DNA from: Arenicola marina
Lineage: Eukaryota > Annelida > Polychaeta > Arenicolidae
Direction: 5' to 3'
DNA length: 64,000 nt
Assembly (NCBI GenBank): GCA_964019135.1
Contig: OZ025253.1
Location: forward strand, 4,221,059 to 4,285,058
In this document: piece by piece, positions 15,201 through 63,110 of the stretch
Position numbering within the stretch: position 1 is the first letter of the stretch
How the letters are laid out: every line of letters begins with the position of its first letter
Notes under the pieces: generated by a model
Told to the model about the DNA's origin: nothing
Database searches by the model: none
Seen by the model: only the letters and a program-made list of their open reading frames with translations
Made by a program: the position numbers and the translations under genes

Positions 15201-18200
15201 GGCCTACGCAGAGTGCACAGACATACCCTGAGATCCAGATTTGACCATTCAATTCGTATTTAGCCTCTTAGATCCAGATTTGATACCTCAGATCCGGCAA
15301 CTCCATAACTGTCGTTATAGTGAGCATCCTCTCAATTGTTAGCCCATCCCAAAAGTAAAAGTCACTCTTCAGCTTCAACGATCTCACTCGGTGGACATCT
15401 GAAACCAAACTGCCCGTTTATTTAGTTTCAGTCTACATTTCTAGTTTCTACATCCCTACCATGCACATTAGTTTCATAGCAAACATCTCAATCATCCCAC
15501 CACCCATCTTGACCCCCCCCCCACCCTCCCACCTCCCCCCGCTTTCCCCACAAACAACAGTAGACTCGCACCGCGGCAGTCGGTATCCCACGCGATCGCC
15601 CAACGCCTCGCTGTTTGTTTTCTAACGCAGATTAGCGAGTCGTCGCGCTTTGTCATGATATAAGGCATGCGGTAGTGTGAGGCACCTGACAGCTCACCAG
15701 GCGATAGAGGTTGACCAGCTGTTCCTAATAGTTAATAGCTCTCGTAGGGTCTTATGTTGGAGTTGAGCAATTTTTGGCAGACAAACTAATTAAGCGATTT
15801 TCAAAATTCAAAGACGTTATACAAGTTACCTACGGGCTCAATACGTGACATAATGTACAGCGTCATTAAATGAACATTGTAAACGTTATAGCGACTTTTC
15901 CGATTTTTGATCCTGTCTACCAATGGTTAAGGAACAAACAAAAAAATCCTGTGACCTTGACCTTTGCCGTACATATCCCGCTAACGAACTTGACCGAGCC
16001 ATGTCGAATATCGATGGTTAAAGTTACAGAACGAAATGTGGCGTTTTGCGATCTACACAGCGCGCACACCCAGACACACAGAGACATACCAATGTAGTGA
16101 TAGATGCCATAAAATCGTAGATTTTACGTCATAACAACAAAGCCACAGGCAAAATCATTTGTAACGATATGTAATGCTGGTAGAATATTGGTTATCGCAG
16201 GACTGTTGTGTTGTACAACATAATATACTCACAGGAATTGCACGGTTGCCTCGTAACTGTCGCCAATGTCAACTGCAATAACGGGAGATGAGAACTCCAA
16301 GGCACTCCCGAACATAGTAATTAGCGTGCTTCCTGCCAGAGGACCGCTGTCCGGAATCACCATGGCAACATCTGACGAAGGACAATATAAAAATATTACC
16401 AAAACCACTTTTTGGTCGCTCAGTAACGGTTATCCAGACGGTGGGCATTTCACTGAATTTCAAATTATGGTGTTGCGACAGTAAAGCGAAAGATTGTCAT
16501 AATTGGAATAATATTGGCTGGAAACAAATGTCATCTCCCTTTGTTGCTCCTTATCTCAATTGGGATCAGTTGTTAAATTACCCGAGAATTACGAGTTTAA
16601 ACTCTCAACGCTAAACACCGAGAAGCTTTACAAATCACCCGGGCGATTGGTTGGTTCCGTTGACGTTGTGCGCACAGCGTTTGGTGTGGTTGTTGGGACA
16701 TCCTCTGTAGCCACGTGACCAAGTGTTGTAGCCATTGTGGAATCTGCAGCAAGAAAATTATTAACTGCTTGTGAAGTGCTTTAGAGATATAGCAGTTCAA
16801 GGGGGGGGGGGAGTTCAAGACGCCCATAAAGCCATTTTTATCTTAGTTTGTTAAACATCCTGACTGTGGAAATGATTTAATTATGTCATTATTTCATCAA
16901 TGTCAATATGTTGATTCAACAAAGAAATGCGGATGTTGTTTTGCCAGACAAGTACATGTACATATTTTGGAATTTAAATTTATTGTTTGCTACGTCATGG
17001 GAATTCCCTTTCTTCGCTGTTTTAATGTTATGACTAACAAGATCAGAAGTGTGACTGATAGACTCTTGAACATTTACGGTCAGTGCGTCTCGTGGATGTT
17101 TGTTTTACCCGCAGGCGAAGGTATCTCCTTGACAAGCGCGTAACCTCAAAAAATGGTCAACCTGTTTATCCTTCCTGTAGCCATACATAAATAGCTACTT
17201 TACGGATAACTGGAGTACTACCCTGCATACTGATATAGGGGCAACGCAGTCACTAGGGTGCCTGATCCCAGACACACCACGAGACAGGGATACTTATGTC
17301 CTACGTCAATGCTATGTTGTCCCTGGTCTGTGATGCATACCTATTGGTGGTTGTTCCCACTCACTCGCTTCAAACAAACAATTGGCTAAAACTATGCCTA
17401 GATGCAAAAAGAACCACTGAATTTAATGCGTATAGTGTAATTATAACCGTCAGAGTCGAGGGCGAGTATTGTTTTTATGGTTAAGTTCTTTTCGTTGAGT
17501 TCAAGCCAATGAGCAGAGATAATCTGAGTATCAATGCAAAACACATGCGTTTGTATTCCTTTTTGGCGTCACTTTCCTCGCTCGCGGAATTTAAATTGTT
17601 AGGTGCGAAAACAATTGAAAAACGTATGCCCTTCTACTATTTGGGGCATTATAGCTCGATCATATAAGCTTGGAAACACAGAAGATTAATATGAGCTACA
17701 GTTGTTTCGGCGCGGCGCCAACTGTTTAAATTACACGATGGTTACGAGGTTTAAACTATCAAAGAAACGCTTGAACACGAGGATTATTTATAAACACTAA
17801 ACACCGAAAAGCTTTACTAATCACCCAAGCGTATGGTTGGTTCCGTTGACGCTGTGCGCAAAGCATCCGGTGTGGTTGTTGGAACATCCTCTGTAGTCAC
17901 GTGACCAAGTGTCGTCGCCATCGTTGAATCTGTAGCAAGAAAATTATTAACTGCTTGTGAAGTGCTTTAGAGATATAGCAGTTCAAGGGAGGGGGGGGGG
18001 GCGGTGTTAATGGTTTAAGGTACCCATAAAGCCATTTTGATCTGAGTTATTTGATTTATAAACATCCTGCATATGGAAATGATTCAATCATGTCATTATT
18101 TCATCAATGTCAATATGTTGATGCAACAAAGAAAAAAAATATTGACAAGGACACTTTTTGCCAGACAAGTACATGTACATCTTTTTGAATTTCAATTAAT

Positions 18201-21200
18201 TGTTCGCTACGTCATGGGAATTCGCTTTCTTCGCTCTTTTAATGTTATGACTAATACGTTCAGGCAATGCGTCTGGCAAGCTTCAAATCGTGTACATGAC
18301 ATTTGTTGTGTGAGACATGGCGTTTGTTTTGTTAGCAACTTAACAATTGATAATCGTAGCGAACATTATGGAACCAAAGCATGCATCATGGATTATAGTG
18401 TGACTGATAGACTCTTGAACATTTACGGTTAGTGCGTCTCGTGGATGTTTGTTTTACCCGCAGGCGAAGGTGTCTCGTTGACACGCAGGTAACCTCAAAC
18501 AGTGGTAAACCTGTCTTTCCTTCCTGTAGCCAGGCCATACATAAATAGCTACTTTACGGATAACTAGAGTATTGCCCTATAGGGGCTATGCAGTCACTAT
18601 GGGGTCGGTTCCCAGAGACCCCACGGGGAAGGCTCGACAGCTCAGTGGGCTAGAGCGCTCGCCTTGAGTGCTCTGGGCCCGTAAGTACGATAGGGCAAAT
18701 TGCGGGCAAAACGGGGGCGGGGAATTGTGCCCGGCCTCATGGCAAGGGCAAGGCCAAGGCGGGGCGTTTTCCGAAAAAAAGGCCCCGTCACCTGAGAGCC
18801 TAACGGCACGTGGGTCGGTGGTTCGAGCCCTGCTGGGGCCATGTCTGTGTGGTCGCAGGATAAAGATCCCATGTCTTTCTTCGTAAAGAGTAGGGGGTTA
18901 CCCCCGAGGACCTGGCTCCACTCTCCCTTCCTCCTCCCATTGAAGCGATATGACCAAAAGTGGTTAAAGCGTCCTGAATAACCATCCAACCAACCAACCC
19001 AGAGACCCCACGAGACAGGCCATACTTTTGCCCTACGTCAATGCTATGTCGTCCCTAGTCTGTGATGCATGCCTGTTGGTGGTTGTTCCCACTCACTTGC
19101 TTCAGATAAACAATGGGCTGAAGCTATCCCTAGATGCCAAACAAACCACTGAATTTAATGCGTATATTATAATTATAGAGAGTTAAGGGCGAGTATTGTT
19201 CTTATGGTTGAGTTCTTTTCGCTGAGTTCAAGCCAATGAGCAGAGAGAATCTGAGTATCAATGAAAAGGCACATGCGTTTGTATTCCCCTTTGACGTCAC
19301 TTTCCTCGCTAGCGGAATTTAAATTGTTAGGTGCGAAAACAAGCGGAAAACGTATGCCCTTCTACTATTTGGGGCGTTATAGCTCGATCATATGAGCTTG
19401 GAAACCCAGAAGATTAATACGAGCTAAAGTTGTTTCGGCGCGGCGCCAACTGCTTAAATTACACGATGGTTACGAGGTTTAAACTATCAGAGAAACGCTT
19501 GTACACGAGGAATATTTATAAACACTAAACACCGAAAAGCTTTACTAATCACCTAAGCGTGTGGTTGGTTCCGTTGACGCTGTGCGCATGGCATCCGGTG
19601 TGGTTGTTGGAACATCCTCTGTAGTCACGTGACCAAGTGTCGTAGCCATCGTTGAATCTGTAGCAAGAACAGTATTAACTGCTTGTGAAGTGCTTTAGAG
19701 ATATAGCAGTTCAAGTGGGGGTGGGGGGGGGGGGGGTCAAGACACCTATAAAGCCATTTTTATCTCAGTTTGTTAAACATCCTGACTATGGAAATGATTT
19801 AATTGTTTCATTATTTCATCAATGCCAATATGTTGATTCAACAAAGAAAAGGGGATGTTGTCAAGGACACTTTTTGCCAGACAAGTACATATACATATTT
19901 TGGAATTTAAATTTATTGTTTGCTACGTCATGGGAATTCCCTTTCTTCGCTGTTTTAATGTTATGACTAACACGATCAGACAATGGGTCTGGCAAAGTTT
20001 CAAATTATGTAGGTGGGATTTGGTGTGTGAGCAACTTAACAATTGATAATCGTAGCCAAGATTATGGAAGCAAATCACGCATCATGGGTTAAAGTGTGAC
20101 TGATAGACCCTTGAACATTTACGGTCAGTGTGTCTCGTGGATGTCTGTTTTAACCGCAGGCGAAGGTGTCTCGTTGATAGGCGCGTAACCTCAAAAAATG
20201 GTCAACTTGTTTATCCTTCCTGTAGCCAGGCCATACACAAATAGCTACTTTACGGATAACTGGAGTACTGCCCTGCATACTGATACAGGGGCAACGCAGT
20301 CACTACGGGGCCTGATCCCAGACACACCACGAGACGGGGATACTTATGTCCTATGTCAATGCTATGTCGTCCCTGGTCTGTGATGCATACCTCTTGGTGG
20401 TTTTTCCCACTCACTCGCTTCAGACAAACAATCGGCTTAAGCGATGCCTAGATGCAAAAAGAACCACTGAGTTTAATGCGTGTATTATAATTATAACCGT
20501 CAGAGTCGAGGGCGAGTATTGTTTTTATGGTTGAGTTCTTTTCGTTGACTTCAAGCCCATTAGCAGAGAACATCTGAGTCGCCATGCAAAAGCACATGTG
20601 TTTGTATTCCTTTTTGAGGTCACTTTCCGCGCTCGCGGAATTTAAATCTGCGGAGTCAGAAAAGGACGTTAAACACTCGTGAGTTTTAGACCTTGGTGTC
20701 TCTTTGGGGATCGGTACCCGCTCCGTTTCAACAGAATTATCCCCCGGCATATAGCCGGAAGACACATTAAAAATCGCGGACACGCCTCTATAAATAAACC
20801 TGCAGCTAACCACAAGTTCATTTTGAGGTCACTTTCCTCGCTCGCGGAATTTAATTGTTAGGTGCGAAAACAAGTGGAAAACGTATGACCTTCTACTATT
20901 TGGGGCGTTATAGCTCGATCAGATAAGCTTGGAAACACAGAAGATTAATATGAGCTACAGTTATTTCGGCGCGGCGCCAACTGTTTAAATTACACGATGG
21001 TTACGAGGTTTAAACTATCGGAAAAACGCTTGTACACGAGGATTATTTATAAACACTAAACACCGAGAAACTTTACTAATCACCCAAGCGTATGGTTTGT
21101 TCCGTTGACGCTGTGCGCATGGCATCCGGTGTGGTTGTTAGAACATCCTCTGTAGTCACGTGACTAAGTGTCGTCGCCATCGTTAAATCTGTAGCAAGAA

Positions 21201-24200
21201 AATTATTAACTGCTTGTGAAGTGCTTTAGAGACATAACAGTTCAAGGGAGGGGGGGTAATGGTTTTAGGTATCCATAAAGCCATTTTGATCTGAGTTATT
21301 TGAGTTATAAACATCTTGCATATGGAAATGATTCAATCATGTCATTATTCAATCATGTCATTATTTCATCAATATCAATATGTTCATGCAACAAAGAAAA
21401 GAAATATTGTCAAGGACACTTTTTGCCAGACAAGTACATGTACATATTTTGGAATTTAAATTTATTGTTTGCTACGTCATGGGAATTCCCTTTCTTCGCT
21501 TTTTTAGTGTTATGACTAATACGATCAGGCAATGTGACTGGCAAAGTTTCAAATCATGCACATGGCACTTGTTGTGTGAGCAACATAAAAAATGATAATC
21601 GTAGCCAAGATTATGGAAGCAAAGCACGCATCATGGGTTAATGTGTGACTGATGGACTCCTGAATATTTACGGTTAGTACGTCTCGTGGATGCTTGTTTT
21701 ATCCGCAGGCGAAGGTGTCTCGTTGACACGCGGGTAACCTCAAAAAGTGGTCAATCTGTCTTTCCTTCCTGTAGCCAGGCCATACATAAATAGCTACTTT
21801 ACAGATAAGTGGAGTATTGCCCTGTATACTGATATAGGGGCTATTTAGTCACTATGGGGTCGGATCCCAGAGACCCCACGGGGAAGGCTCGACAGCTCAG
21901 TGGGCTAGAGCGCTCGCCTTGAGTGCTCTTGGCCCGTAAGTTCGATAGGGCAAATTGCGGGCAAAACGGGGGCGGGGAATTGAGCCCGGCCTCAGGGCAA
22001 GGCCAAGGCGGGGCGTTTTCCGAAAAAAGGCCCCGTAACCTGAGAGCCTAACGGCACGTGGGTCGGTGGTTCGAGCCCTGCTGTGGCCATGTCTGTGTGG
22101 TCGCAGGATAAAGATCCCATGTCTTTCTTCGAAAAGAGTAGGGGGTTACCCCCAGGAACATGGCTCAACTCCTCCTTCCTTCTCCGATTGACGCGGTATG
22201 ATCAAAAGTGGTTAAAGCGTCCTGAATAACAATCCAACCAACCAACCCAGAGACCCCACGAGACAGGCCTACTTCTGCCCTACGTCAATGCTATGTCGTC
22301 CCTGGTCTGTGATGCATACCTCTTGGTGGTTGTTCCCACTCACTCGCTTCAGACAAACAATGGGCTAAAGGTATCCATAGATGCCAAACAAACCACTGAA
22401 TTTAATGCGTATATTATAATTATAACCCTCATAGTTGAGGGCGAGTATTGTTCTGATGGTTGAGTTCTTTTCGTTAAGTTTAAGTCAATGAGCAGAGAGA
22501 ATCTGAGTATCAATGCAAAAAAACACATGCGTTTGTATTCCCCTTTGACATCACTTTCCTTGGCAGTGGAATTTAAATTGTTAGGTGCGAAAACAAGTGG
22601 AAAACGTATGCCCTTCTACTATTTGGGGCGTTATAGCTCGATAATATAAGCTTGGAAACACAGAAGATTAATACGAGCTAAAGTTGTTTTGGCGCGGCGC
22701 CAACTGTTTAAATTACACGATGGTTACGAGGTTTAAACTATCAGAGAAACGCTTGTACACGAGGATTATTTATAAACACTAAATACCGAGAAGCTTTACT
22801 AATCACCCAAGCGTATGGACGGTTCCGTTGACGCTGTGCGCAAAGCATCCGGTGTGGTTGTTGGAACATCCGCTGTAGTCACGTGACCAAGTGTCGTGGC
22901 CATCGTTGAATCTGTAGCAAGAAAATTATTAACTGCTTGTGAAGTGCTTTATAGATATAGCAGTTCATGGGGGGGGGGGGAGGGGTTCAAGACACCCATA
23001 AAGCCATTTTTATCTGAGTGTGTTAAACATCCCGACTATGGAAATGATTCAATTATGTCATTACCTCATCAATGTCAATGTGTTGATTCAACAAAGAAAA
23101 GGGGATGTTGTCAAGGACACTTTTTGCCAGACAAGTACATATACATATTTTGGAATTTAAATTTATTGTTTGCTACGTCATGGGAATTCCCTTTCTTCGC
23201 TGTTTTAATGTTATGACTAACACGATCAGGCAATGTGTCTGGCAAAGTTTCAAATTATGTACATGGGATTTGTTGTGTGAGCAACTTAACAATTGATAAT
23301 CGTAGTCAAGATTATGGAAGCAAAGCACGCATCATGGGTTAAAGTGTGACTGATAGACTCTTGAGCATTTATGGTTAGTGCGTCTCGTGGATGTGTGTTT
23401 TACCCGCAGGCGAAGATGTCTCGTTGACAAGCGCGTAACCTCAAAAAATTGTCAACCTGTTTATCCTTCCTGTAGCCAGGCCATACATAAATAGCCACTT
23501 TACGGATAACTGGAGTATTGCCCTGCATACTGATATAGGGGCTATGCCGTCACTATGGGGTCGGATCCCAGAGACCCCACGAGACAGGGATACTTATGTC
23601 CTACGTCAATGCTATGTCGTCCCTGGTCTGTGATGCATACCTATTGGTGGTTGTTCCTACTCACTCGCTTCAGACAAACAATTGGCTAAAGCTATGCCTA
23701 GATGCAAAAAGAACCACTGAATTTAATGCGCATATAATAATTGTAACCGTACGTAAGTGACTAAGTTTATGTAACATGCCCGAGGTTATATAGTGAAAGT
23801 GATAAACTCGGATTTGGTTTTTTTCCGTGAGTGACTGTCTGGCGAACAATCGACCGTGAAAAAAGGGCAAGGTCAGATGCACACGTTGGGACACATCAAG
23901 TAGGCCCATTCTGTTGTCCAAGTGGCCGGAGCACAGAAACATGCGCGTCGGGGCTGCGTGGGCGTTCTCCTGTCGTACCATGAGAAATGTAGCTCTATCG
24001 GGAGGGGTTTGGGGTATGCACTGGGCATACCTCGGACGAAGGGCCAATTTATGTCTCGAGTTATTCTAAGCTAAATTTGTTTGGCCTAATGAAAAGTTTC
24101 AATTCTTCCAATTGAGAACATATATTAAGGTCCTTATTTTATTAAAAATAAAATAAAAGCAACATTCAAAGAATAAAAAGGCATGTTGTATGGGCTATTT

Positions 24201-27200
24201 TCGCCCGAATGGTATGGGATTGACCATTGGTATTAATAGATGTGCTATTCCTGTATGACGTCACACACTAGATGCGCTACGCCGGTATGACGTCACACAC
24301 TAGATGCGCTACGCCGGTATGACGTCACACACTAGATGCGCTATGCCTGTATGACGTCATACATTAGACTCTCACCGATTCGGCTTTTGACGCGGAGATC
24401 CGGGTCCTGCTGAACCGATTCACGCGGAGACAAACGAATGTATTCCTCCGCCTGAGGCGTGAAGAGTCTTCCAGCGCCTGTCAATAAGTCGTGCAAGATG
24501 GTACAGGGGTGATCCAGAGAAAAAACTAAAAGTAAACGACTGTATTGAAAGTAATGAGAAGAAAGGATGCATAAGAAATGATGAGAAGCCAAGATTATTG
24601 CAAAAATATGGATTCAATATTTCGTTTTGTAGCATGGGTGGCAGGGGCGGATCCTGGAATTCAAACAGGAGGGACGGTCCATTGAAACTTGCGACCGGGG
24701 GAAGGGGAGCGGAGTAGGGGCGGGGGGGGGGGGCTCTGAACCGCAACGCCTGGCCGTGGAGGGTGGCCCTACAACTGTACCCCCCGCCCCAACCACCGGC
24801 GTATTCGCCCTTGGGTTGATTTGGATGGTTGGCTTGGGGCCAGCAGTGTGACTAAAGACAATACTCCTGTCATATTTTCCATGAAAGCAATTTCTACAAT
24901 ATATCTCATTCATGACATTCATCATTTATATTAAAAGACGTAATACTATGTGGGATTATGTTTTCGCATATTTTATGTCTATAAATATATAAGACGCATT
25001 TGTAATGTGATATATCGAAGGAGAAGTCGCCAAATGAACATAACGTGATGTATGCACCTACAGAGTGCCATGGCCGCCATTACGGTAGTCATCAGAATTA
25101 CGGTCACCACCAAAACCAGGCTCCGATAGATGTCATGACTTGGGGGTTCCACCTGGCGGTGCTGGTGTCCTCCCCACTCCTCACTGAGGGAAAACCATAT
25201 TAGAACATAGGTTATATTTATTGTTCTAAACAGCTGGTGCCACGCCAAAACAAATTTAGCTCATATTAATCTTCTGTGTTTTCCCGCTTCTATTATCGAG
25301 CTATTACGCCCCAAACAGTAGAATCGAATACTTTTTCCAGTTTTCCAGTTTTCGCACCTACATACTTAAATTCTGGGAGCGAGGAAAGTGACGTCAAAGG
25401 GAAATACAAACGCATGTGCTTTTACACTGAGACGCCCTCGACAACAGCTGTCTACGCACCGCATCAAAGCTCACCTGTCAATCTTGTGACACCATATGGG
25501 AATTTCTAAATACCGCTCAGATGCTATGCTCCCAGAATTAAATCCGCCGGCCCTCACTTTTGCTACTTTGACGAAAGCGTGTATAGTGATATTGTGGAAA
25601 AAAACCTGTAAACTCCCATTAAAACAAATTCTTATGTGGTTGTCTTTCCTAAACAAAGTTAACTCTGAGCTAAACAAAATGGTGGCACGAACACTATAAG
25701 TTGGAGGCTTTAGCCTATGAAGGGTACAGAAGTGGGCCTCTGTGCCAGACCTTGTGTACACAAAGGCTGATAAAAAAGACACCAATTCACATAATTTGTG
25801 TAGGTTTAATGGAGACAATGAGAAGGCTCAAGTTGGCGTGGAACCATGTCTCCAGGTTCTTGTCAGTCAAGAGCACTTGTGCTAATGTTTATTGTTGACT
25901 TGTATATACCGACGTTAAAAAAAACTTTTATCTTATCTTACCTTATCTTATCTTATCTTATCTTATCTTATCTTACTCCCTGCAACGCAAGTTATATATA
26001 CACACAAACATAGACATGCAACAACCAAGAGGGCTGGTTGTGAACCAATTGAGACCTAGTATTTTTTAAGTACTTGAAGTACTATTTAAACGATGAATCG
26101 ATCGTTGGGTACTTATTAATGTTATGTTTTTATTAATATTTATAACTCTCGTGGAAGAGTTGTGTATCTTTGCATTTGGTTAAATAAAATGCTCGCGTCA
26201 CTCACTTGTGTTCCGTACGAGTAGCAATTTCCTAAACATATCAATTCATACAATCCGATATATCAATATAAATGAACTGCTACCTATAACATATGTATTA
26301 TAGCCGAAGTAACTATACAAACAAAAAATACTTCTCCTCTAGATATACGCTGTGTTTATAGGCGGCCATTTTTAAAGAATCTTTCCCTTTAACAATATAT
26401 TTAATTTTAGCGTTCTGTACATAGGAGGTTCAACTACGTGTTGAAATGTAACACAACCCGTCATGCCTATTTATCGTTCAAACGGGCCCTTCTGGATATC
26501 TAAAGTGTCATAGGACACTTCGCAGTTTTTGCTGTACTAATGGTGCGCAGTTGGGGGCGGGGTGGGGGGGTGCGGGTGGGTGGGGGGGGGGGCTCCTAGA
26601 CACAAACTCTGGTTCTTTCTGTCAGATAAGTCAAGTACCTGTTAATGTTGGAGGTCCTATAATGTAGCTATACTACTACTCCGTGTAATCGTGTCGGGCT
26701 TCACCAAGCAGTAAACATGGAGTGTTCCTTTTTAACTTGAGCGTCAAAGCACCGAACTTGAACGCTACCAGTACTTTTTTCTTTGTGAAAAACTCTGTTT
26801 CTCAGTCGTAACTAGTATGCTTTTGTGCTATTTATTTTTTCGTTGCTGCACGTAACAAAGCTCTCTTGACCTGCTTGGTGTTACCGAGTAAATAGTAAAA
26901 CAACTTCCTCTTTCAGTGTTGAATACGCTGGTGGTTAATCAGGAATTAAAATCTTACCACGGTACTCCATGACATAGAATCTGAACTTGACTCATGTATC
27001 AAAAACGCATTAACCCATAAGGTATATATTTATATCGCATGTATCTATAACGCATATATTTATATTACATGTATCTATAACACATATATTTATATCGCAG
27101 GTATCTATATCACACGGCACGATATAGCCTTACAGGCTGAAAGTGCCGTTAAAACCCAATCAAATCAAATCTATATCCCATGTATCTTTGACAATGTGTT

Positions 27201-27945: not shown

Positions 27946-29123
27946 ATCTATGGCGTTTTATGAGTAGCCTAAATCAGTATCTGTTGCTTGCCAATTTTTC
28001 CGGTCTTTCTCGTTCAACCTATCACGAGAGGAGGTTACGAAGAACTATTGCTCTCTGTCTCGGCAACTATTGCTCTCTGTCTCGGCACTCACGCCGTAGG
28101 CCGGCTACCGGCAGGACGGTCCAAGCCCTCAACACTAAGCTGAGGCAATTTTATTTTTATGGAAAAACAAAAATCAGAAATGGTAAGTGTTATTTAGAGG
28201 TCGATGGCATGTCCTAGTTACATACCATCAGCTTCAAGTGCCACTTCCTCGTCCGTAGGCAGGTAGCTCTCTGCTCTTAAGACGACGTCTGTTCCATTAA
28301 TACCGTGATATAGAGAATACGTGTTTCAACGAAACACCTTATCTAACAATGGGGGTCCCACGTGCCCCAATGGGTAGTGCGTTCGGCCATTGTCAAGTGT
28401 TCTCAGCTAGGTCAGCCCAAGCTGCCGGTGCATGGTTTGAGCCCAATATCTGAAGATATCTACCTTTATGCAAGATACAGATCAGATGTCGTTGTACGCA
28501 AAGAGTAGACGGTTATATGGAAACATGGCTTATCTCTATCTTGACGAGGAATGACGGCAGAAGTGTAAGACTTGAATATATATTTATATTATATCGTTTG
28601 TTTTATTTCCCATTTCAAAGAATACCATTGTTGATTTGTCTCTAATTCGCCCCCTGCCATATCTTATTAACAGACGGTGGCAGACTGTTAGTTAGATGAG
28701 GCACATATCGATGAGAAAAAAAACAGACGTTGGATAGCAGGTAGCTTTCTGTAGCCAGTAAATGGTACTTGAAGTCCAGCGTATAAATACAGCATTAGAA
28801 GCCAATGTTGCATATTCAGAAAGGTTTTAAACCCTAACCCTAGCCAGCTGGGCCATCGGGGCAGCCCCACCAGAGATCTCTAACTGGCACTTGCCATTTT
28901 GATATTTTTTGGGATCGTGACGAAATCGCTGCCGCTAAGTGTAGAGGACCTACACCGTTCTACGGCCAGGTGGCGTATCGCGCGAGAGTGTCGTGCCAGA
29001 GAGCTAGAGTATACCAACGTGTTCTGCTGATAGGGTTAAACAAGAAATAGCGGCATAACAGGCAAGGTACTGGCTGACGCTACAAGAACTCCGCAAAAAT
29101 TCCGTTACTCCGACGCCATAGAT
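27946..29123. promoter_or_regulatory. Divergent promoter region between genes B and C
   Basis: 1.18 kb between the two start codons. Each side carries the conserved 5' leader also seen upstream of gene A (B side 27946-28140, with a 29-bp internal duplication around 28040-28085; C side 28930-29123). The middle holds a SINE-like copy (28348-28590) and the A/B homology ends near 28735, where the inverted C side begins by 28900. Confidence 0.5.
28348..28590 (+). mobile_element. tRNA-like SINE, copy upstream of gene B
   Basis: Matches 7588-7830 over its length; GTGCCCCAATGGGTAGTGCG (A-box-like) and GGTTTGAGCCC (B-box-like). Confidence 0.5.
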
Positions 29124-29167
29124 ATGAAATTACAAAGCTGGAGTGACTGTGGGAGAAAGAAACAGGG
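29124..29167 (+). CDS. Gene C exon 1 with start codon
   Basis: ATG at 29124 opens MKLQSWSDCGRKKQ, ending GG|GTAAGC in phase 2. Unlike A and B there is no stop directly upstream in frame, so a longer N-terminus cannot be excluded, but conservation begins at this Met. Confidence 0.65.
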
Positions 29168-32100
29168 GTAAGCAATTTATTTAACAGTAACTTATTGTTA
29201 TGACTCTATTGTCCGAATGTAGGATTATAGTTTGGTTTATTGACCAAATTAGACCAAATTAAAGTATTAATATAGACACATGTGCGCCATATAGATTTAA
29301 GGTCGTTATAGATTTAAGGTCGTTATAGATTTAATGTCTTACAATACGCGTCTTATAGATACGCGAGTTATGCATACATATGTCATAGCTGCATTTGTTG
29401 TCAATACAAGTTTTATAAATACAGATTATATAGATATAGATGTGTTATAGACACGCAAGCTATGCATACCTGTCATAGATTCACTTGTTGTCAATACAAG
29501 TGTTATATATACGGATGTTATAGATATAGCTGTGTTATAGATACGCGAGCTATGCAGACATATCTCATAGATGCATTTGTTGTGGATACAAGTGTTATAA
29601 ATACTGATCTTATAGATGCATGTCTTATACATATATGCGCCGGTTAGGTTCTACTTTAGATTCTATGTGGCCGAGTGCCGTATATGCGTTAAGTACATGT
29701 TAGCTACCAGAGTGTTCAACACTCGAAGAGGGACCTTTTTTTACCATTATTTTGATGTCAACCAGCAGAAATAGAGCGCGTTCTTAAGTGCGGCAAGTGT
29801 CAAATAAATAACATAAAATGTTAACGGTTGGAGAGACTTGGAAAAACGCAGAGAGATTGAACTTTTATCAAAGAAGGAAGTACAAGTACTACCTGGACAC
29901 CGGCAGTAGTTCAAGTTAAGAAGAAAAATAGTCTATTGCTTGGTGAATTTCGAATGACACTCTTCGCAAGGAACAGTATGCAGTCAAGCTACACACCTTA
30001 GTCTATATACTGAATCATTAAAATGTACTTGATATATGTCACTGGAGCCTATACACACCTATACCCCCACCATCTCTACACCTTTTTTGTAGAGCAAGCA
30101 AGTATATATTACAGCCATCTATATTACAGCCGGACTAGACATCTGCCTGCAGACAATTTTCACCATTCAGCGCTAAAGGGTGGTTAAGCATGTTTCGCAA
30201 AATATTTATCTTAAAATTAAAGGCGTTCAACCAACTTGATCGATGAATCTTTGTAAACGTTATTGTAACATATGTTTGCATTGTGTGGTGGTGTCTGGCT
30301 TACGCTTTAAGCGTATACAAATTACAACATTAACTTATTTGAAACGACCATAAACAGCTGTGTTTTGCGTTGTGATAACCCTGCGGTATGCTGTCCAATT
30401 CGATAACTCCTTCTATGTTAGAGCCTCCTACTTTACGCAATCAATATAATCAATAACAATCAATAATGTCCTATCCTTCAGCGAGGAGTGGGGAACAGAC
30501 CAGCACCGCCACGTGGAACCCCCAAGTCATGAGATCTACCGCAGCCTCGTTCTGGTCGTAACCGTAATCCTGACGACTACCCTAATGGCGGCCATGACAC
30601 TCTGTAGGTGTATATATGACATTATTTGGCGGCTTCGCCGTCGATAGTGTTTTCCCTTAGACTTTGGCAAAGAACCGCGTTTTTTTGCATTTATAAGGTG
30701 AACATATGTGAAAGCTGAATCATATACAAGTCCTTTATGTGGGCGTGTCGTGTGTTGAAATACCACGGAACCGAAGCTAGTTTGATGGGCGGAAGAATTA
30801 CAAGCATGTATGGTAGGAAAGGCCAATAAAATGTTTATTGACGGTTAAAAATTAAATTGAGCCAATCGAAGGTAGGGTTTAAAGGGCCACGCACAGCATA
30901 GTGCCAAGCCTGAAACAAATAAACTGCATATCAATAAGCAGATTTTATGAATAAATCGTGAATATGAAATCAAGATTGCAGGGATGGTGGGGAGGAGGGG
31001 GGTGGGTGGGAACACTTGTCATCACGGATCGAAGTGGGAGCTGGTCCCTGTAATTGGTTCATATACAATGCAGGACTAAACAATGAGAGACATAGCTCGA
31101 TCGTACAAAGATAATCGACTACCCCCGATAAATGTGTTTTAACGTTGCACAAACTGTTTATTAGTTCTATCATGCATGACATATAGGATAAACATTTATG
31201 ATGCAATTGTATTATCAATTAATCTAAAACGATCATTTTCATTCAGTCACATTGCTGGCCACAAGACAATCATCCAAATGAACGTCTGCTAGAATTACAT
31301 ATTAAAGCACATCAGTCAATATTATATCTAATTTCTTTGAATAATTTTTTTGAATACATTTATTTTGTTGTTCCAAGTCCCAACCTGTGCTATGTTACTT
31401 TTTGAAAGACGTCACCAAACCGTTCACGCCCCAGGCGGACGAATACATCGATTTGTCTCTCCGTGAACTGGTGCAGCAGGACCTGGATCCTAGCATCCAG
31501 AGCCGCGTGGGTGAGCCGCTAATGCGTGACGTCATAACGGCATATCATTAACAATGTACTATTATCACTATCAAATCACTAATAATGTAATATTAATGTA
31601 ATAATAGTGAGTTATTGCACTGCGTTTTCGGTTTAACGTAAATGATTATCGATGAACATGCAACATGCAACTCGGGTTGTTTCCTGACCTACATAGATAC
31701 GTTTGCGCGACAAAGTATTTTACGGTGCAAAATCTCCGCCCGGTGGAACACTGACTACCATATCATATCATATAGAGTCGCGCGAGAGTTAACATCGGAA
31801 GGTAAACGTATTTGAGCTAACGGGTCGGGATGAGCGTCAGTGGCGCGGGGAGGAAGGACAATAACGCTATATTATCAATAAAGTATCTACGCCACGGATG
31901 ATTAGCGCCATCTCGCGGGTGGCTCCATCACCCGTCAATGCCATTGTTGTTGCACAGTTAAAAGGGTTTAGTTTACGTGTATTGGGAATAAACTCAGAGA
32001 AGTGACTGTTGTTGTTATCTGGCGTGGTGGCAGCGGTTTACAAACCCTCGCCCGAAGTAGCATAGTGTATCAACAAGACGAAAAGACTGAAACAGCTTCA

Positions 32101-35100
32101 CTCACCTTCGATTTGGAAAATTGAAGTTTCCTCATGCAAGTAAGCTAAGCGTCTTCGTTCGCTCCGAAGCAATGGTCTTTGACCAAGCAGGAGACGCTAT
32201 TACAAACACAAACACATTTGTTTAATGACGTAACTTGAGGCAATACACTGCAACCATCCGCCCGGATATCCTAAACATATAAATAGTTGTCGCCTATCAA
32301 AACGTTCAAACTGTCAATACGTTTAGCCTGTATGTACATATATATTGTATCGTGCTTGTATAAGTTCATACAAACAATTGCAAAGTTGGTTTTGTTCGCT
32401 CTGTTCTCATCTAGATCCTTGCGTCGGTAGCCCATGTGACCATGGAACATGTGTTGCCATGGGAACAGATTTTGTCTGTGATTGCGACCCTCTCTGTCCC
32501 TGTTACAGCGGGACAACAAACGACAGATGCACCATCGGTGGGTGATTAGCTTATCGATGCCCGTCTGTGAAACGTGACGCTACAAGGAACTAGTAATATA
32601 ATGACACTAATGGATAGCCCATTAGCGACTAAAAATAACAATGAGAAATGACATTGTGCGGGAGGCTAGGGTTTCCAGAACCCCCCCCCCCCCCCCAATA
32701 CACCCCCACCCCGCTCCGTTTCACAATCGATGCCTCTTTTCGTGCCAGTTGTGCGCCTTGTTGAATAGTAGTTTGTTCCCAATTGATTGATACTAAAATT
32801 GAATTCAAAACATTGTGTGCTTATGACCCAACCCGGTGATAAGAGATTAAAGCCTTGCAGTCACATCAGTAATGATTTTGATAAAATCTCGCTTTAGACA
32901 TATGCTGCTAAGATCAGTGGAATAAATGCGATTGTTAATTGTACATCATTTATTCGCAACTGTTATATCTAGGCTATGTGGGAAAGAAGACACATCTGGC
33001 GAATCATCATTCAGTGTAATCAACCATTAATGTCAGTTGCCATGAAGACGATTATGATAATGACAACGGGGACGTGTTTATTCCAGACATCGTAGACACG
33101 AGCTGCGCAGGACTGTCGGATGGAAATTACCCAAACCCCTTCGACTGTTTGAAGTACATCCTGTGTATATCTGGCTTCGTCCTCGAGGGACAATGCGAGG
33201 CAGGACTCGTGTTTGACGCCATTAGCCGGCAGTGTGACGTCATCGACAACGTCCCCTGCGCCGAAAACATCACTAGCTCTGGTAAGAAAATAAACTGGAA
33301 TAACCACGTTGCTATTATGTTATCAGGCAAAACTCCCTCGTTTAAAATTTGTACTAAACGTTCAGAGAGACTCACAAGTCATGAATAATGATGACGAGGT
33401 TCCTTTGATGAACAACGACGACAGGATAGATAAAACTCTCACATGAGGCGTCATGCTGTATTGTGTAAATACAAATGTTCCTGTCACTTTTCACACGTAC
33501 TTTCGTTGTGTGTATTAGTCATGACGAATCCTAATCATTTGAAAAACGCATTGTTAACATATAACGAACTAATATGTTTCACCACTATATAAATTAGTCT
33601 GGGTACACCCAGTTACTGGGAACGATCATCAGGCAGGAGTTCAGCAAGGGAAGCGAAGCGGTAGGTACCAGGCAAGTCCGACCAGTGGCGCCACCACGTG
33701 TGTTTTCTCCTTCAGGTCCATGCGCATTGAGGCCATGCGAGTACGGCACGTGTGTTGTCATGGGAACGGATTATCGTTGCGACTGTGACCCTGTGTGCCA
33801 GTGTTACAACGGTGTGATCAACGACAAGTGCAGCGTAGGCAAGTTATATAGTCCCGATATCCTCACATATAGTTCGAGTACCTTCTAATAGAGTACTTGA
33901 ACTACGTGAAATCACGTCAGTTAGTAGATAATGAACACTAACTGATATTTGTTATGTTACATTGCGACAGGTGCGTTGCATTCACTGGAATGTTTATTGT
34001 TGTATGTTATGGCGTATCCAGGGGGCATCCCGACTCACTTAAATACGGTTCTATTCTTTTAAAATGTAGAAATAATGACCCTATGCTAATGGCAAACGCA
34101 GCGCTCCCTAAAGTAGAATATTTTGAATTTCTAGATATAAATTGAGACTGGACATAATTGGTGATGTCGAGACATAAATTGGTCCTCCGTCTCAGATGGT
34201 TAGTGCAAAAATAATTAGAAGGTCCAATACCAAGTCCATGCAAGCCGTTGCTTATGGGGCTCACCCCACACGGGACGTCCGGTGGGTTTTCTGCAGATGT
34301 GCTGGATAACGACTGTGCTGGAGTGCCTGAAGGTTATTACCAAAACCCGTTTGACTGCTCGGCGTACATTCTATGTCTGGGAGGCATCACCCTGCCCGCC
34401 TCATGCAATCTCGGAACAGTGTTTGATGTCGACCTCCAAGATTGCGTCCACCCCTCGGGACTCCCATGCGCATATTATGCAACAGGTGAGCGAAAGCAGT
34501 ACCAACAATTCATTGGGTGATTAGTCCAGCGGATATGGCTCACTTGTCTCTTATACCCTTGCAGTCAAATTTAGCTATAGTGTCAAGTCAGATTTTATCC
34601 ATGGCGGCTTGGGCGGCCATTTTTAAAAATAGCCGACCATACTATCAAAAATATCCAATATCTCGTAAATTAACTATGATAGAACTATTACTTCATATTC
34701 TTGTATAGGTTTTTGGGGTCGCTGAATTCAAGAAACATATTCTCATGTATCTAGGAGCAACGCTTCCACCATTTACCAAGATGGCGGACAAGGCCAACAA
34801 AAATACTCAATATCTTGAAAACTAAGAGGCGCAGAGTCGCTATGTTAATGCCTATCCATAGGTTTTCCGGGCCGCTGAGTACAAAAAAATCGTGATTGAG
34901 TAGCCAGAAGCAACGCATCCGTCATTTTCCAATAATACTTAATATCCTGAAAACTAAGAGGGATATAACTATTATTTTAATACATGCAGTCTTCGACCCC
35001 AGTGCTAGCCGTGTCCGCCATCTCGGAAAATGGCGGATGCGTGTGTCTTGAATTGACTTGACACCATAGCTAAATTTGATTAGACATGCATTTCCGACAT

Positions 35101-38100
35101 TTGTGCCAAATTTCATGCTCTTACCACAAAATGCACGATTTTCCGCTTATCCGCTGGACTACATGTTTTAATACTGTGGCGGATCCAGAGAATGTGCGTA
35201 AACGCAATCGATATTAAGGCAGGTCAGACATGCCCTGTCCACCAACACAACGCAAGACGTACCTTCCATGGATCAAGTTGCATATGCTAAATAAACACAC
35301 GCATAATATTGCAAGAACCTTGTTCCCAGTAGGTTTGCCCTGTAATTGTGCTACTGGTCAAGTTGTTCTCAACACGAGGGATCACTGTCGTCCTCCAAAT
35401 TATTTCCAGATACAACAACGACCAGTGTCGGTTCAACTACAACTAACTTTGTCCTCACCACATCAACCATGACTAATTTAGTTTTAGCTACAACAGACGT
35501 TGTCCCGACTAGAACAGAAGTTGTCCCGACTACAACAGACGTTGTCCCGACTACAACAGACGTTGTCCCGACTACAACAGAAGTTGTCCCGACTACAACA
35601 AACGTTATCCCGACTACAACAGAAGTTGTCCCGACTACAACAGAAGGTGTCCCGACTACAACAGAAGCTGTCCCGACTACAACAGAAGTTGCCCCCACTA
35701 CAACAGACGTTGTCCCGACTACAACAGTTGTCCCGACTACAACAAACGTTGTCCCGACTACAACAGACGTTGTCCCGACTACAACGGAAGTTGTCTCGAC
35801 TACAACAGAAGTGGTCTCGACTACAACAGAAGTTGTCCCGACTACAACAGAAGTTGTCCCGACTATAACAGAAGTTGTCTCGACTACAACAGAAGTTGTC
35901 TCAACTGCAACAGAAGTTGTCCCGACTACATCAGAAGTTGTCCCGACTACAACAGAAGTTGTCTCCACTACAACAGAAGTTGTCCCCACTACAACAGAAG
36001 TTGTCCCCACTACAACAGAAGTTGTCCCCACTACAACAGAAGTTGTCCCCACTACAACAGAAGTTGTCCCCACTACAACAGAAGTTGTCCTGACTACAAC
36101 AGAAGTTGTCCCCACTACAACAGACATTGTCCAGACTACAACAGAAGTTGTCCCCACTACAACAGACATTGTCCAGACTACAACAACCGTTGTCCCGACT
36201 ACAATAGACGTTGTCCGCACTACAACAGACGTTATCCCGAGTACAACAGAAGTTGTCCCCACCAGAACAGACGTTGTCCCGACTGCAACAGAAGTTGTCC
36301 CCACCACAACAGGTCTCCCGACTACAACAAACATTGTCCCCACTACAACAGACGTTGTCCAGACTACAACAGACGTTGTCCCCACTACAACAGACGTTGT
36401 CCCGACTACAACAGACGTTGTCCCGACCACAACAGAAGTTCTCCCGACTACAATAGACGTTGTCCCGACTACAACAGCAGTTCGCCCGACTACAACAGAC
36501 GTTGTCCCGACTACAACAGAAGTTCTCCCGACTACAACAGAAGTTCTCCCGACTACAACAGACGTTGTCCCGACTACAACAGAAGTTGCCCCGACTACAA
36601 CAAACGTTATCCCGACTACAACAGAAGTTGTCCCGACTACAACAGAAGTTGTCCCGACTACAACAGAAGCTGTCCCGACTACAACAGAAGTTGCCCCCAC
36701 TACAACAGACGTTGTCCCGACTACAACAGTTGTCCCGACTACAACAAACGTTGTCCCGACTACAACAGACGTTGTCCCGACTACAACGGAAGTTGTCTCG
36801 ACTACAACAGAAGTGGTCCCGACTACAACAGAAGCTGTCCCGACTACAACAGAAGTTGCCCCCACTACAACAGACGTTGTCCCGACTACAACAGTTGTCC
36901 CGACTACAACAAACGTTGTCCCGACTACAACAGACGTTGTCCCGACTACAACGGAAGTTGTCTCGACTACAACAGAAGTGGTCCCGACTGCAACAGAAGT
37001 TGTCCCGACTACAACAGAAGTTGTCCCGACTATAACAGAAGTTGTCTCGACTACAACAGAAGTTGTCTCAACTGCAACAGAAGTTGTCCCGACTACAACA
37101 GAAGTTGTCTCCACTACAACAGAAATTGTCCCCACTACAACCGAAGTTGTCCCCACTACAACAGAAGTTGTCCCGACTACAACAGAAGTTGTCCCCACTA
37201 CAACAGAAGTTCTCCCGACTACAACAGACGTTGTCCCGACTACAACAGACGTTGTCCCGACTACAACAGAAGTTGTCCCGACTACAACAAACGTTATCCC
37301 GACTACAACAGAAGTTGTCCCGACTACAACATAAGTTGTCCCGACTACAACAGAAGCTGTCCCGACTACAACAGAAGTTGCCCCCACTACAACAGACGTT
37401 GTCCCGACTACAACAGTTGTCCCGACTACAACAAACGTTGTCCCGACTACAACAGACGTTGTCCCGACTACAACGGAAGTTGTCTCGACTACAACAGAAG
37501 TTGTCCCGACTACAACAGAAGTTGTCCCGACTACAACAGAAGTTGTCCCGACTATAACAGAAGTTGTCTCGACTACAACAGAAGTTGTCCCCACTACAAC
37601 AGAAGTTGTCCCCACTACAACAGAAGTTGTCCCCACTACAACAGAAGTTGTCCCAACTATAACAGAAGTTGTCTCGACTACAACAGAAGTTGTCTCAACT
37701 GCAACAGAAGTTGTCCCGACTACAACAGAAGTTGTCCCGACTACAACAGAAGTTGTCCCCACTACAACAGAAGTTGTCCCCACTACAACAGAAGTTGTCC
37801 CGACTACAACAGAAGTTGTCCCCACCACAACAGACATTGTCCAGACTACAACAGAAGTTGTCCCCACTACAACAGACATTGTCCAGACTACAACAGAAGT
37901 TGTCCCGACTACAACAGAAGTTGTCCCCACCACAGCAGACATTGTCCAGACTACAACAGAAGTTGTCCCCACTACAACCGAAGTTGTCCCCATTACAACA
38001 GAAGTTGTCCCCACTACAACAGAAGTTGTCCCGACTACAACAGAAGTTGTCCCGACTACAACAGAAGCTGTCCCGACTACAACAGAAGTTGCCCCCACTA

Positions 38101-41100
38101 CAACAGACGTTGTCCCGACTACAACAGTTGTCCCGACTACAACAAACGTTGCCCCGACTACAACAGACGTTGTCCCGACTACAACGGAAGTTGTCTCGAC
38201 TACAACAGAAGTGGTCCCGACTACAACAGAAGCTGTCCCGACTACAACAGAAGTTGCCCCCACTACAACAGACGTTGTCCCGACTACAACAGTTGTCCCG
38301 ACTACAACAAACGTTGTCCCGACTACAACAGACGTTGTCCCGACTACAACGGAAGTTGTCTCGACTACAACAGAAGTGGTCCCGACTACAACAGAAGTTG
38401 TCCCGACTACAACAGAAGTTGTCCCGACTATAACAGAAGTTGTCTCGACTACAACAGAAGTTGTCTCAACTGCAACAGAAGTTGTCCCGACTACAACAGA
38501 AGTTGTCTCCACTACAACAGAAATTGTCCCCACTACAACCGAAGTTGTCCCCACTACAACAGAAGTTGTCCCGACTACAACAGAAGTTGTCCCCACTACA
38601 ACAGAAGTTCTCCCGACTACAACAGACGTTGTCCCGACTACAACAGACGTTGTCCCGGCTACAACAGAAGTTGTCCCGACTACAACAAACGTTATCCCGA
38701 CTACAACAGAAGTTGTCCCGACTACAACAGAAGTTGTCCCGACTACAACAGAAGCTGTCCCGACTACAACAGAAGTTGCCCCCACTACAACAGACGTTGT
38801 CCCGACTACAACAGTTGTCCCGACTGCAACAAACGTTGTCCCGACTACAACAGACGTTGTCCCGACTACAACGGAAGTTGTCTCGACTACAACAGAAGTT
38901 GTCCCGACTACAACAGAAGTTGTCCCGACTACAACAGAAGTTGTCCCGACTATAACAGAAGTTGTCTCGACTACAACAGAAGTTGTCTCAACTGCAACAG
39001 AAGTTGTCCCGACTACAACAGAAGTTGTCCCGACTACAACAGAAGTTGTCCCCACTACAACAGAAGTTGTCCCCACTACAACAGAAGTTGTCCCGACTAC
39101 AACAGAAGTTGTCCCGACTATAACAGAAGTTGTCTCGACTACAACAGAAGTTGTCTCAACTGCAACAGAAGTTGTCCCGACTACAACAGAAGTTGTCCCG
39201 ACTACAACAGAAGTTGTCCCCACTACAACAGAAGTTGTCCCCACTACAACAGAAGTTGTCCCGACTACAACAGAAGTTGTCCCCACCACAACAGACATTG
39301 TCCAGACTACAACAGAAGTTGTCCCCACTACAACAGACATTGTCCAGACTACAACAGAAGTTGTCCCGACTACAACAGAAGTTGTCCCCACCACAACAGA
39401 CATTGTCCAGACTACAACAGAAGTTGTCCCCACTACAACCGAAGTTGTCCCCATTACAACAGAAGTTGTCCCCACTACAACAGAAGTTGTCCCGACTACA
39501 ACAGAAGTTGTCCCCACTACAACCGAAGTTGTCCCCATTACAACAGAAGTTGTCCCGACTACAACAGAAGTTGTCCCGACTACAACAGAAGTTGTCCCCA
39601 CTACAACCGAAGTTGTCCCCATTACAACAGAAGTTGTCCCGACTACAACAGAAGTTGTCCCCACTACAACCGAAGTTGTCCCCATTACAACAGAAGTTGT
39701 CCCGACTACAACAGAAGTTGTCCCGACTACAACCGAAGTTGTCCCCATTACAACAGAAGTTGTCCCCACTACAACAGAAGTTGTCCCCACTACAACAGAA
39801 GTTGTCCCCACTACAACAGAAGTTGTCCCCACTACAACAGAAGTTGTCCTGACTACAACAGAAGTTGTCCCCACTACAACAGACATTGTTCAGACTACAA
39901 CAGAAATTGTCCCCACTACAACAGACATTGTCCAGACTACAACAACCGTTGTCCCGACTACAATAGACGTTGTCCCCACTACAACAGACGTTATCCCGAG
40001 TACAACAGAAGTTGTCCCCACCACAACAGACGTTGTCCCGACTGCAACAGAAGTTGTCCCCACCACAACAGGTCTCCCGACTACAACAAACATTGTCCCC
40101 ACTACAACAGACGTTGTCCAGACTACAACAGACGTTGTCCCCACTACAACAGACGTTGTCCCGACTACAACAGACGTTGTCCCGACTACAACAGAAGTTC
40201 TCCCGACTACAACAGACGTTGTCCCGACTACAACAGCAGTTCGCCCGACTACAACAGACGTTGTCCCGACTACAACAGAAGTTCTCCCGACTACAACAGA
40301 AGTTCTCCCGACTACAACAGACGTTGTCCCGACTACAACAGACGTTGTCCCGACTACAACAGAAGTTCTCCCGACTACAACAGACGTTGTCCCGACTACA
40401 ACAGAAGTTCTCCTGACTACAACAGAAGTTGTCCTGACTACACCAGAAGTTCTCCCGACTACAACAGACGTAGTCCCGACTACAACAGACATTGTCCCCG
40501 CTACAACAGACGTTAGGCCCACTACAAAAGATGTCGTCCCAGCAACCATATCGGATGCTGCGTCCACTCCATCAAAGGACTCAACGCCGTCACCAGGTTG
40601 GTTGGTTGATTGTATATATATTCAGGACGTTTGAACCAATTCTGGTCATACCGCGTCAATGGCAGAAGGAAGGGACAGGGGAGCCATGTGTCCGGGAGTA
40701 ACCTTCTACTCTAAGGACATGGGATCTTTACCCTGCGACCACACAGACATGGCCCTGTCACTAGATACGTAAATCGTGTTCTGGGCTCTATGTACACATG
40801 GGCTAAAGTTGGCTACCATCAGGCCCCGCGGTGTATACGCACAAGTAAGAGAATTAATGGATTAGTGCATCGGGCCACTTGTTTACATGCAGGGGCCAAA
40901 TCGGGCCAAGTGAACCCGCGGACAATGAAATGGAAGGTAGAAAAGGACCCACACTCTTGTGCTTATATGCCGCCAAATTGTTGGTCTGTAGTCGAGTGGT
41001 CACGCTGTGACTAGTCATAGGGGTCTGGAAGGAGTATATGGCGAGACAGGCCAACACTGACACTGACGATCTGAAAAAGCGACATCGACATAAATTTTTG

Positions 41101-62794: not shown

Positions 62795-63110
62795 CCGGGA
62801 TTGGGGGACCGGGGACGGCGGGGTAAGACGGGAACCGGGGTGGGGGGCCGGGGGACGGCGACTTTAGTGGGCAACCGGGGTGGACGAATGGGAGGATGGC
62901 GGTGGTGAGGTGGGACACGGGGTCAGGGGACCGGGGGTATGGCGATATGAGGCGGGACCCGGGGTGGGAGGACGTGTGGAGGGCGGGGTGAGGCGGGACC
63001 TGGGGTGAGGGGACAGGGGGGACGGCGGGCTGAGGCGGGACCTGAGGTGTGGGGAAGGGGAGGACGGGGACAGGCGAGGGCTGGCCTCATGGTAGCGGGA
63101 CCAGGGGTGG
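62640..63110. repeat. GC-rich minisatellite spanning the gene C stop codon
   Basis: Imperfect ~30-bp units of GGTGAGGCGGGACCCGGGGT type. The first part is coding (GVRRDPGLGG), the rest 3' flanking. The seed corresponds to TAGVGRDPGSG of gene B. Confidence 0.8.

Follow-up and report, generated by a model that had tools for sequence, protein, structure and literature searches.

Minisatellite growth and exon duplication in stalk exons of a clustered IPT-domain receptor family of Arenicola marina

The window analyzed here is a stretch of 64,000 nucleotides from the polychaete Arenicola marina (assembly GCA_964019135.1, contig OZ025253.1; C6:4221059-4285058, where C6 is the contig that holds the window). 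It contains genes B and C and part of gene A, which belong to a tandem family of predicted receptors that cross the membrane once and have an IPT ectodomain resembling that of Met and plexins. Symmetric phase-1 exons, placed after a variable head and ahead of the first IPT domain, would encode a Thr/Ser/Pro-rich stalk, which is presumably O-glycosylated. We lean toward the view that repeats and duplications are abundantly supplied in these genes and are filtered by reading frame and tolerance, while stalk length drifts. In-frame changes of the stalk would be tolerated because its exons are phase 1-1 and probably disordered. New length would come from two sources: growth of a minisatellite within an exon (21 bp in exon M of C; 18 bp in the neighboring genes D, E and F), and unequal crossing-over at dispersed repeats, which would copy exons together with their introns (the Thr exon of B; the CBM-M block of A). 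Changes that break the frame would be purged as long as the gene is in use, and length would be left to drift. A first-pass annotation of the window had proposed that B and C lengthened the same stalk by two different mechanisms; the two mechanisms stand, as just one part of a wider pattern that is also seen in A, D, E and F.

Gene C enlarged the exon that we call M. Tandem arrays were called with Tandem Repeats Finder (TRF) and domains by Pfam scan, and the exon models for B and C are phase-consistent.

35410..40596, plus strand: exon M of C, 5187 nt, phase 1-1, with AG before 35410, GT at 40597 and ends that resemble the M exons of A
37332..37334, plus strand: in-frame TAA inside exon M, one base different from the GAA of the consensus unit
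40597..40755, plus strand: dispersed repeat abutting the exon M donor (3694 candidates, 40 scored)

The 21-bp array occupies 35488-40540 with 241.9 copies by TRF, or 245 units when the degraded ends are counted; its consensus peptide is EVVPTTT, and the exon would contribute 1728 residues, including 705 T, 35 S and 205 P. The size and the array that the first-pass annotation gave for this exon both hold, qualified by the in-frame TAA and by a donor that lies at a dispersed repeat. That TAA is the sole stop among 1729 codons read through the exon. Because only 1 of the 63 single-base changes of the unit creates a stop in this frame, its openness is weak coding evidence (a second plus-strand frame is open for 1667 aa), and we rejected the 5-kb open frame as proof of coding on the same ground. 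The donors of A's M exons read CAG/gtacgg, while that of C sits at the start of the dispersed repeat, of which the other 39 scored copies begin at query base 1-10 or 19-23. Two segments of B (18836-18999 and 22085-22247) that had been candidates for remnants of the intron following C's array exon were rejected, the 159-nt stretch in question being this dispersed repeat. Within the array, repeated stretches as long as 717 nt are identical save for at most 3 bases. As assembled, and with exon M spliced in, C would yield a truncated product without the transmembrane (TM) segment; with exon M skipped, which preserves the frame because the exon is symmetric, it would yield a short-stalk receptor.

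Gene A bears on what was enlarged in C. Its exons run EGF-CBM-M twice, then a third M and one Thr exon; the three M exons are 90 nt long and phase 1-1, and the CBM-M part is duplicated with 85.6% identity. Since both ends of C's 5187-nt exon resemble A's M, it appears to be a short M exon in which an array grew. C thus enlarged M and B copied Thr, the next exon; these are two different exons, and the first-pass annotation's terms "same stalk" and "kept" do not apply as written. Genome-wide, a search with the Thr exon at E<=10 yields seven matches, of which B has five and A and C have one each, that of C being, as had been annotated, its only 105-nt Thr exon (41746..41850, plus strand). The five B copies are closer to A (identity 0.78-0.83) than to C (0.70-0.76), and B is likewise nearer A in the first IPT exon (IPT1) and in e2, whereas it is nearer C in e3, and B and C group with full support in a 108-aa IPT exon. 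We therefore rejected B and C as simple sister genes, the Thr exon, IPT1 and e2 placing B nearer A; the grouping of B with C in the 108-aa exon perhaps came about through gene conversion. A weak match near L054rc 3108-3156, in the stretch of A outside the window, may be a decayed second Thr exon of A.

In gene B, on the minus strand, it is the Thr exon that multiplied.

22911-22807, minus strand: Thr exon copy 5 of B, the most 5′
21188-21084, minus strand: Thr exon copy 4
19657-19553, minus strand: Thr exon copy 3
17929-17825, minus strand: Thr exon copy 2
16743-16639, minus strand: Thr exon copy 1, adjoining IPT1
23750-20821 and 20500-17561, minus strand: 3-kb block in two tandem copies, each carrying two Thr exons, 90.9% identical

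All five exons are 105 nt long, phase 1-1 and open, with AG/GT ends. The first-pass annotation had this right in counting five such exons, though not in its five duplications; three suffice, because the 3-kb two-exon block was itself duplicated. It was also correct that B has no minisatellite of C's kind, as no 21-bp array occurs there. One copy of a dispersed repeat lies 5′ of each Thr exon (that of copy 1 at 17267-17450; 40 of 1530 candidates scored, with copies on many contigs). Because this repeat accompanies every Thr exon, unequal crossing-over between its copies would fit as the means of copying. One unit would have given B1 and X, X a doublet, and the doublet would then have been copied. 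B1 is the most distant of the copies; between it and B2-B5 the proportion of nonsynonymous differences (pN) is 0.095-0.155 and that of synonymous differences (pS) 0.277-0.314. Within B2-B5, pN/pS is mixed and exceeds 1 for B4 versus B2, and identity is 0.905-0.962 in the exon, 0.869-0.944 in the 5′ flank and 0.759-0.936 in the 3′ flank, so that conservation of these exons does not clearly exceed that of the sequence around them. Searches of B with tblastn and blastn detected neither an EGF or CBM_14 exon nor an M exon; its Thr copies therefore do not raise an EGF/CBM_14 head, and at 175 aa its Thr-rich part is similar in length to that of A (125 aa).

In some other members of the family the place of the Thr exon is occupied by other repeats. 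In the genome searched (867 Mb, 762 contigs), 54 sequences match the 108-aa IPT exon at E<=0.01, and none of them contains an internal stop. Thirty are strong (E<1e-37): 21 at C6:3.66-4.56 Mb, four at C6:9.8-10.1 Mb, three on C14 and one each on C3 and C4. The family thus comprises at least 30 Met/plexin-like IPT receptors, 21 of them in a single 0.9-Mb cluster. Upstream DNA was read for 12 of the 30 strong members (A to F, one more cluster gene, the four at C6:9.8-10.1 Mb and one on C14), and a Thr-rich stretch lies at or just before the stalk place in 11 of these, one of which has unsettled exon ends. In E, the exon at the place of Thr is 2313 nt long and open, with 127 units of 18 bp (DIPTTE); in F it is 117 nt long with an 18-bp Thr/Pro array, and the introns that follow the E and F exons are 94.5% identical over 128 nt. 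In D, the second IPT exon has an 18-bp Thr/Pro array fused to its end, and no match to IPT1 lies near that array. The four genes at C6:9.8-10.1 Mb form two near-identical pairs, and their Thr/Ser-rich exon lacks a tandem array; in the seventh gene of the cluster there is a short run of Thr, the one with unsettled ends; and the C14 gene has no Thr-rich stretch in the last 1.5 kb before IPT1. Among the matches listed for the 18-bp peptide (58 matches; 150 of 763 candidates scored), those in the family fall in D, E and F alone.

The D/E/F stalk exon and the Thr exon of A, B and C have place, phase and ends in common. Of 2000 shuffles, the nucleotide score was reached by 6 for A, 54 for B2, 215 for B1 and 623 for C, and the protein score by 4 for B2, 24 for A, 40 for B1 and 259 for C; A and B2 thus appear to show modest similarity beyond composition, and C none. 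The Thr-rich stalk would measure 39 residues in F, 125 in A, 175 in B, 771 in E and 1764 in C if its stop is ignored.

Repeats are in ample supply. The share of sequence occupied by tandem arrays is 25% in the window, 1.3% in the 9 kb of A and 18-51% in five upstream regions of 30 kb, of which four are mutually related. The variants within the exon arrays comprise 15 synonymous types in C against 14.8 expected and four in E against 4.9, and purifying selection on array amino acids was rejected, there being no signal of it in either gene. What sets the exon arrays apart is their frame. None of nine insertions or deletions (indels) in the arrays of C and E (7,345 bp) shifts the frame, as opposed to 35 of 64 in four intron arrays (17,028 bp). 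Because P values assume independent events, which arrays violate, identical indel types were collapsed; 5.2 frame-shifting types were then expected (P=0.006; P=0.02 without gene F). Indels were counted by a custom script, with the 12-bp arrays of D-F taken as intron controls, a status that we infer. The TDTI/SLTP arrays of this 12-bp type were rejected as exons, each frame in D holding between 68 and 100 stops. Two arrays without indels were left out, the 33-bp tail array of C (308 bp) and a 33-bp array of D (1845 bp, exon status unsettled). The kept frame supports such exons being, or having been, translated; it does not speak for a favored length.

The remaining modeled exons of the three genes in the window are as follows.

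2203-2081, minus strand: first EGF-like exon of A
1576-1382, minus strand: first CBM_14 exon of A, the remaining exons of A lying left of the window
16371-16233, 14983-14804, 13935-13794, 13581-13258 and 12681-12520, minus strand: IPT-region exons of B, the fifth with the donor CAA/GCGAGT
12207-11323, minus strand: TM/tail exon of B, ending at a stop in the same exon
32415..32537, plus strand: EGF-like exon 1 of C, by model, with an hEGF match below the cut-off
33087..33281, plus strand: CBM_14 exon 1 of C, by model and Pfam
33716..33838, plus strand: EGF-like exon 2 of C, by model, with a GC donor
34297..34485, plus strand: CBM_14 exon 2 of C, by model and Pfam
42199..42337, plus strand: IPT1 of C, the first IPT/TIG exon, by model, Pfam and PDB match
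42757-42936, 44742-44883, 45638-45961 and 46597-46758, plus strand: further IPT-region exons of C
51483..60057, plus strand: 35-bp array in the last intron of C, an internal control
61622..62794, plus strand: TM and cytoplasmic exon of C, with the stop at 62792-62794

The tail of C carries a 33-bp array of about 9 copies (61980-62287, peptide YLQTHLSDQEG), absent at that place in B, and its frame ends inside a 42-bp array (62680-63067); the final 71 residues of B, which include two YQN motifs, lack a clear counterpart in C. Because arrays occur in its tail and intron as well, C is repeat-prone in general and beyond the stalk. Over the 380 codons compared between B and C, pN/pS is 0.067/0.196=0.34, and in codons 1 to 67 of the TM exon pN (0.118) exceeds pS (0.085). 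Two introns are of the GC-AG type, with donors AG/GCAAGT in C (33839) and CAA/GCGAGT in B (12519). Compared with the 9-position donor consensus, the Thr exons agree at 6 or 7 positions and the other listed exons at 5 to 8. The 108-aa exon (13258-13581 in B, 45638-45961 in C) is 96.6% identical between the two genes and the other compared exons 78-90%, a possible sign of local gene conversion.

Placement of these genes among known receptors rests on the modeled parts of B and C, which do not include the 5′ exons. There, Pfam found only CBM_14 (E=2.1e-23), TIG (E=1e-13 in B, 1.4e-11 in C) and weak hEGF, TM_ErbB1 and DUF7596 matches; the best PDB matches by sequence were MET (E=1.1e-10) and Plexin-A1 (E=6.7e-6). 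No Sema, PSI or SEA domain matched in these parts, and no RasGAP or tyrosine kinase domain in the tail exons of either gene. Heads differ among members, with EGF-like and CBM_14 modules in A and C. Within the cluster, CBM_14 relatives number two in A and two in C (four of 23 matches at E<=0.01), with a weaker one in D (E=2.6e-4 when 31 loci were searched), and EGF relatives two in A, two in C and one in D (five of 10 matches); this uneven spread marks the head as variable in the cluster. Two 5′ blocks are conserved in A, B and C: u (near 2442, 24472 and 31408) and v (near 4810, 25170 and 30501). By our reading their phases do not join. An exon-like block conserved upstream of all three genes (4697-4849, 25057-25209, 30474-30608) encodes a hydrophobic helix, YRSLVLVVTVILLTTVMAATTLC, and is perhaps a signal or anchor exon.

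Several further repeats and modules resemble those described above. The 33-bp array of D is Ser/Thr-rich, with 56 copies of the peptide ASTVSSVTTVL (L055 reverse complement, 96-1940); one of its frames is open, and a CBM_14-like segment lies downstream of it. EGF-CBM pairs related to the heads of A and C also occur on C7 (28.957-28.968, 29.06 and 4.54 Mb). Outside the cluster, Thr-rich arrays with long open frames lie at C17 24.21-24.22 Mb (up to 2664 aa), at C19 7.98, C5 48.48, C2 16.93 and 17.76 and C10 1.40 Mb, and on C293.

The first-pass annotation had attributed the two mechanisms to selection on stalk length or glycan density. Such selection, with each gene taking whichever mutation was available, is possible and unproven, and we consider it unlikely. 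In its favor, Thr-rich remodeling recurs by at least four routes before the IPT domains of six neighboring genes (M three times in A, Thr five times in B, 21 bp in C, 18 bp in E), the exon arrays retain their frame, and nearly all of the paralogs read share the Thr-rich stretch. However, the direction is not uniform, ranging from the 39 residues of F to the 1764 of C, B has neither a head nor an M exon that we could find, arrays are abundant and show no amino-acid constraint, arrays of similar size lie outside exons, C has further arrays in its tail and intron, and the enlarged exon of C holds a stop. It is conceivable, although we doubt it, that C is instead a decaying gene or null allele, disabled by array growth and the dispersed repeat, with the TAA as one lesion. 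The TAA itself, the donor at the dispersed repeat, the tail cut short in the 42-bp array and the excess of pN over pS at the start of the TM exon would all agree with decay; against it stand the pN/pS of 0.34 over all compared codons, the absence of any other stop in the modeled exons of C before the terminal one, and the symmetry of exon M, whose skipping leaves the frame intact.

It is decidedly improbable that mis-assembly accounts for the length of the array, for the TAA or for the copied blocks of B. The near-identical copies within the C array are hard to assemble and the TAA is a single-base change, yet the window contains no N, other paralogs hold similar arrays, and the B blocks, about 91% alike with dispersed repeats interleaved, are too different for duplicated haplotypes. 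Least probable of all, in our judgment, is that the 21-bp array lies in an intron, is non-coding and is open by accident. The rarity of stop-creating changes, the second open frame and the stop would be consistent with this, but the ends of the exon match A's M in sequence, phase and place, and no frame-shifting indel occurs across 5 kb. Drift of a tolerated stalk has difficulties of its own. The 21-bp and the 18-bp unit are unrelated, yet each encodes a PTT-type peptide before IPT domains, which chance and tolerance alone would not predict; the Thr peptide looks constrained, given pN below pS between B1 and B2-B5; and the stop and the donor repeat may mean that C is decaying rather than drifting. 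When C is compared with its own intron array alone, the frame-shift difference is not significant (P=0.31), and homology of the A/B/C Thr exon with that of D/E/F is argued from place, phase, ends and modest similarity.

Known stalks and receptors offer partial parallels. MUC7 and the MUC3A/MUC3B/MUC12/MUC17 cluster have Thr/Ser/Pro tandem repeats in one coding exon, recurrent change of copy number and paralogous neighbors with very different repeat numbers (PMC4997351, PMC9578598). Of the traits of transmembrane mucins, the large exon of Ser/Thr/Pro tandem repeats is present in C (exon M), and a continuous frame across the repeat exon is broken in C and intact in the 2313-nt exon of E. Unlike those mucins, the modeled parts here show no SEA match, the stalk sits on Met/plexin-like IPT domains, and a sister gene shows whole-exon duplication. 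In CD209 and CLEC4M, likewise related receptor genes, tandem repeats underlie variation in the length of the neck, on which selection has been both claimed and disputed; their necks differ in having 23-aa units in 4 to 9 copies and a C-type lectin head (PMC3261175). Met and plexin share the IPT/TIG ectodomain repeats ahead of one TM segment (PMC6374515), whereas no Sema, PSI, RasGAP or kinase match appeared in the modeled parts of B and C, and the head of A and C is EGF-like/CBM_14.

Exonic minisatellites and exon duplication are each already known, and no earlier report of the present case was found in the literature searched, which is not proof of absence. Adjacent paralogs that altered their stalks by different routes provide replicate cases within one genome, with intron arrays as controls, and the question of whether stalk length is selected or merely tolerated becomes testable by genotyping a few loci. 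We put forward, tentatively and as an unlikely case, that the stalk beside the IPT domains serves as a module for tuning length quickly, its symmetric phase-1 Thr exons being extended again and again by routes that have nothing in common (minisatellites of 21 bp and 18 bp, and copying of whole exons at dispersed repeats). If this were true, stalks of 39 to about 1,760 residues on a conserved IPT base would hold different heads at different heights.

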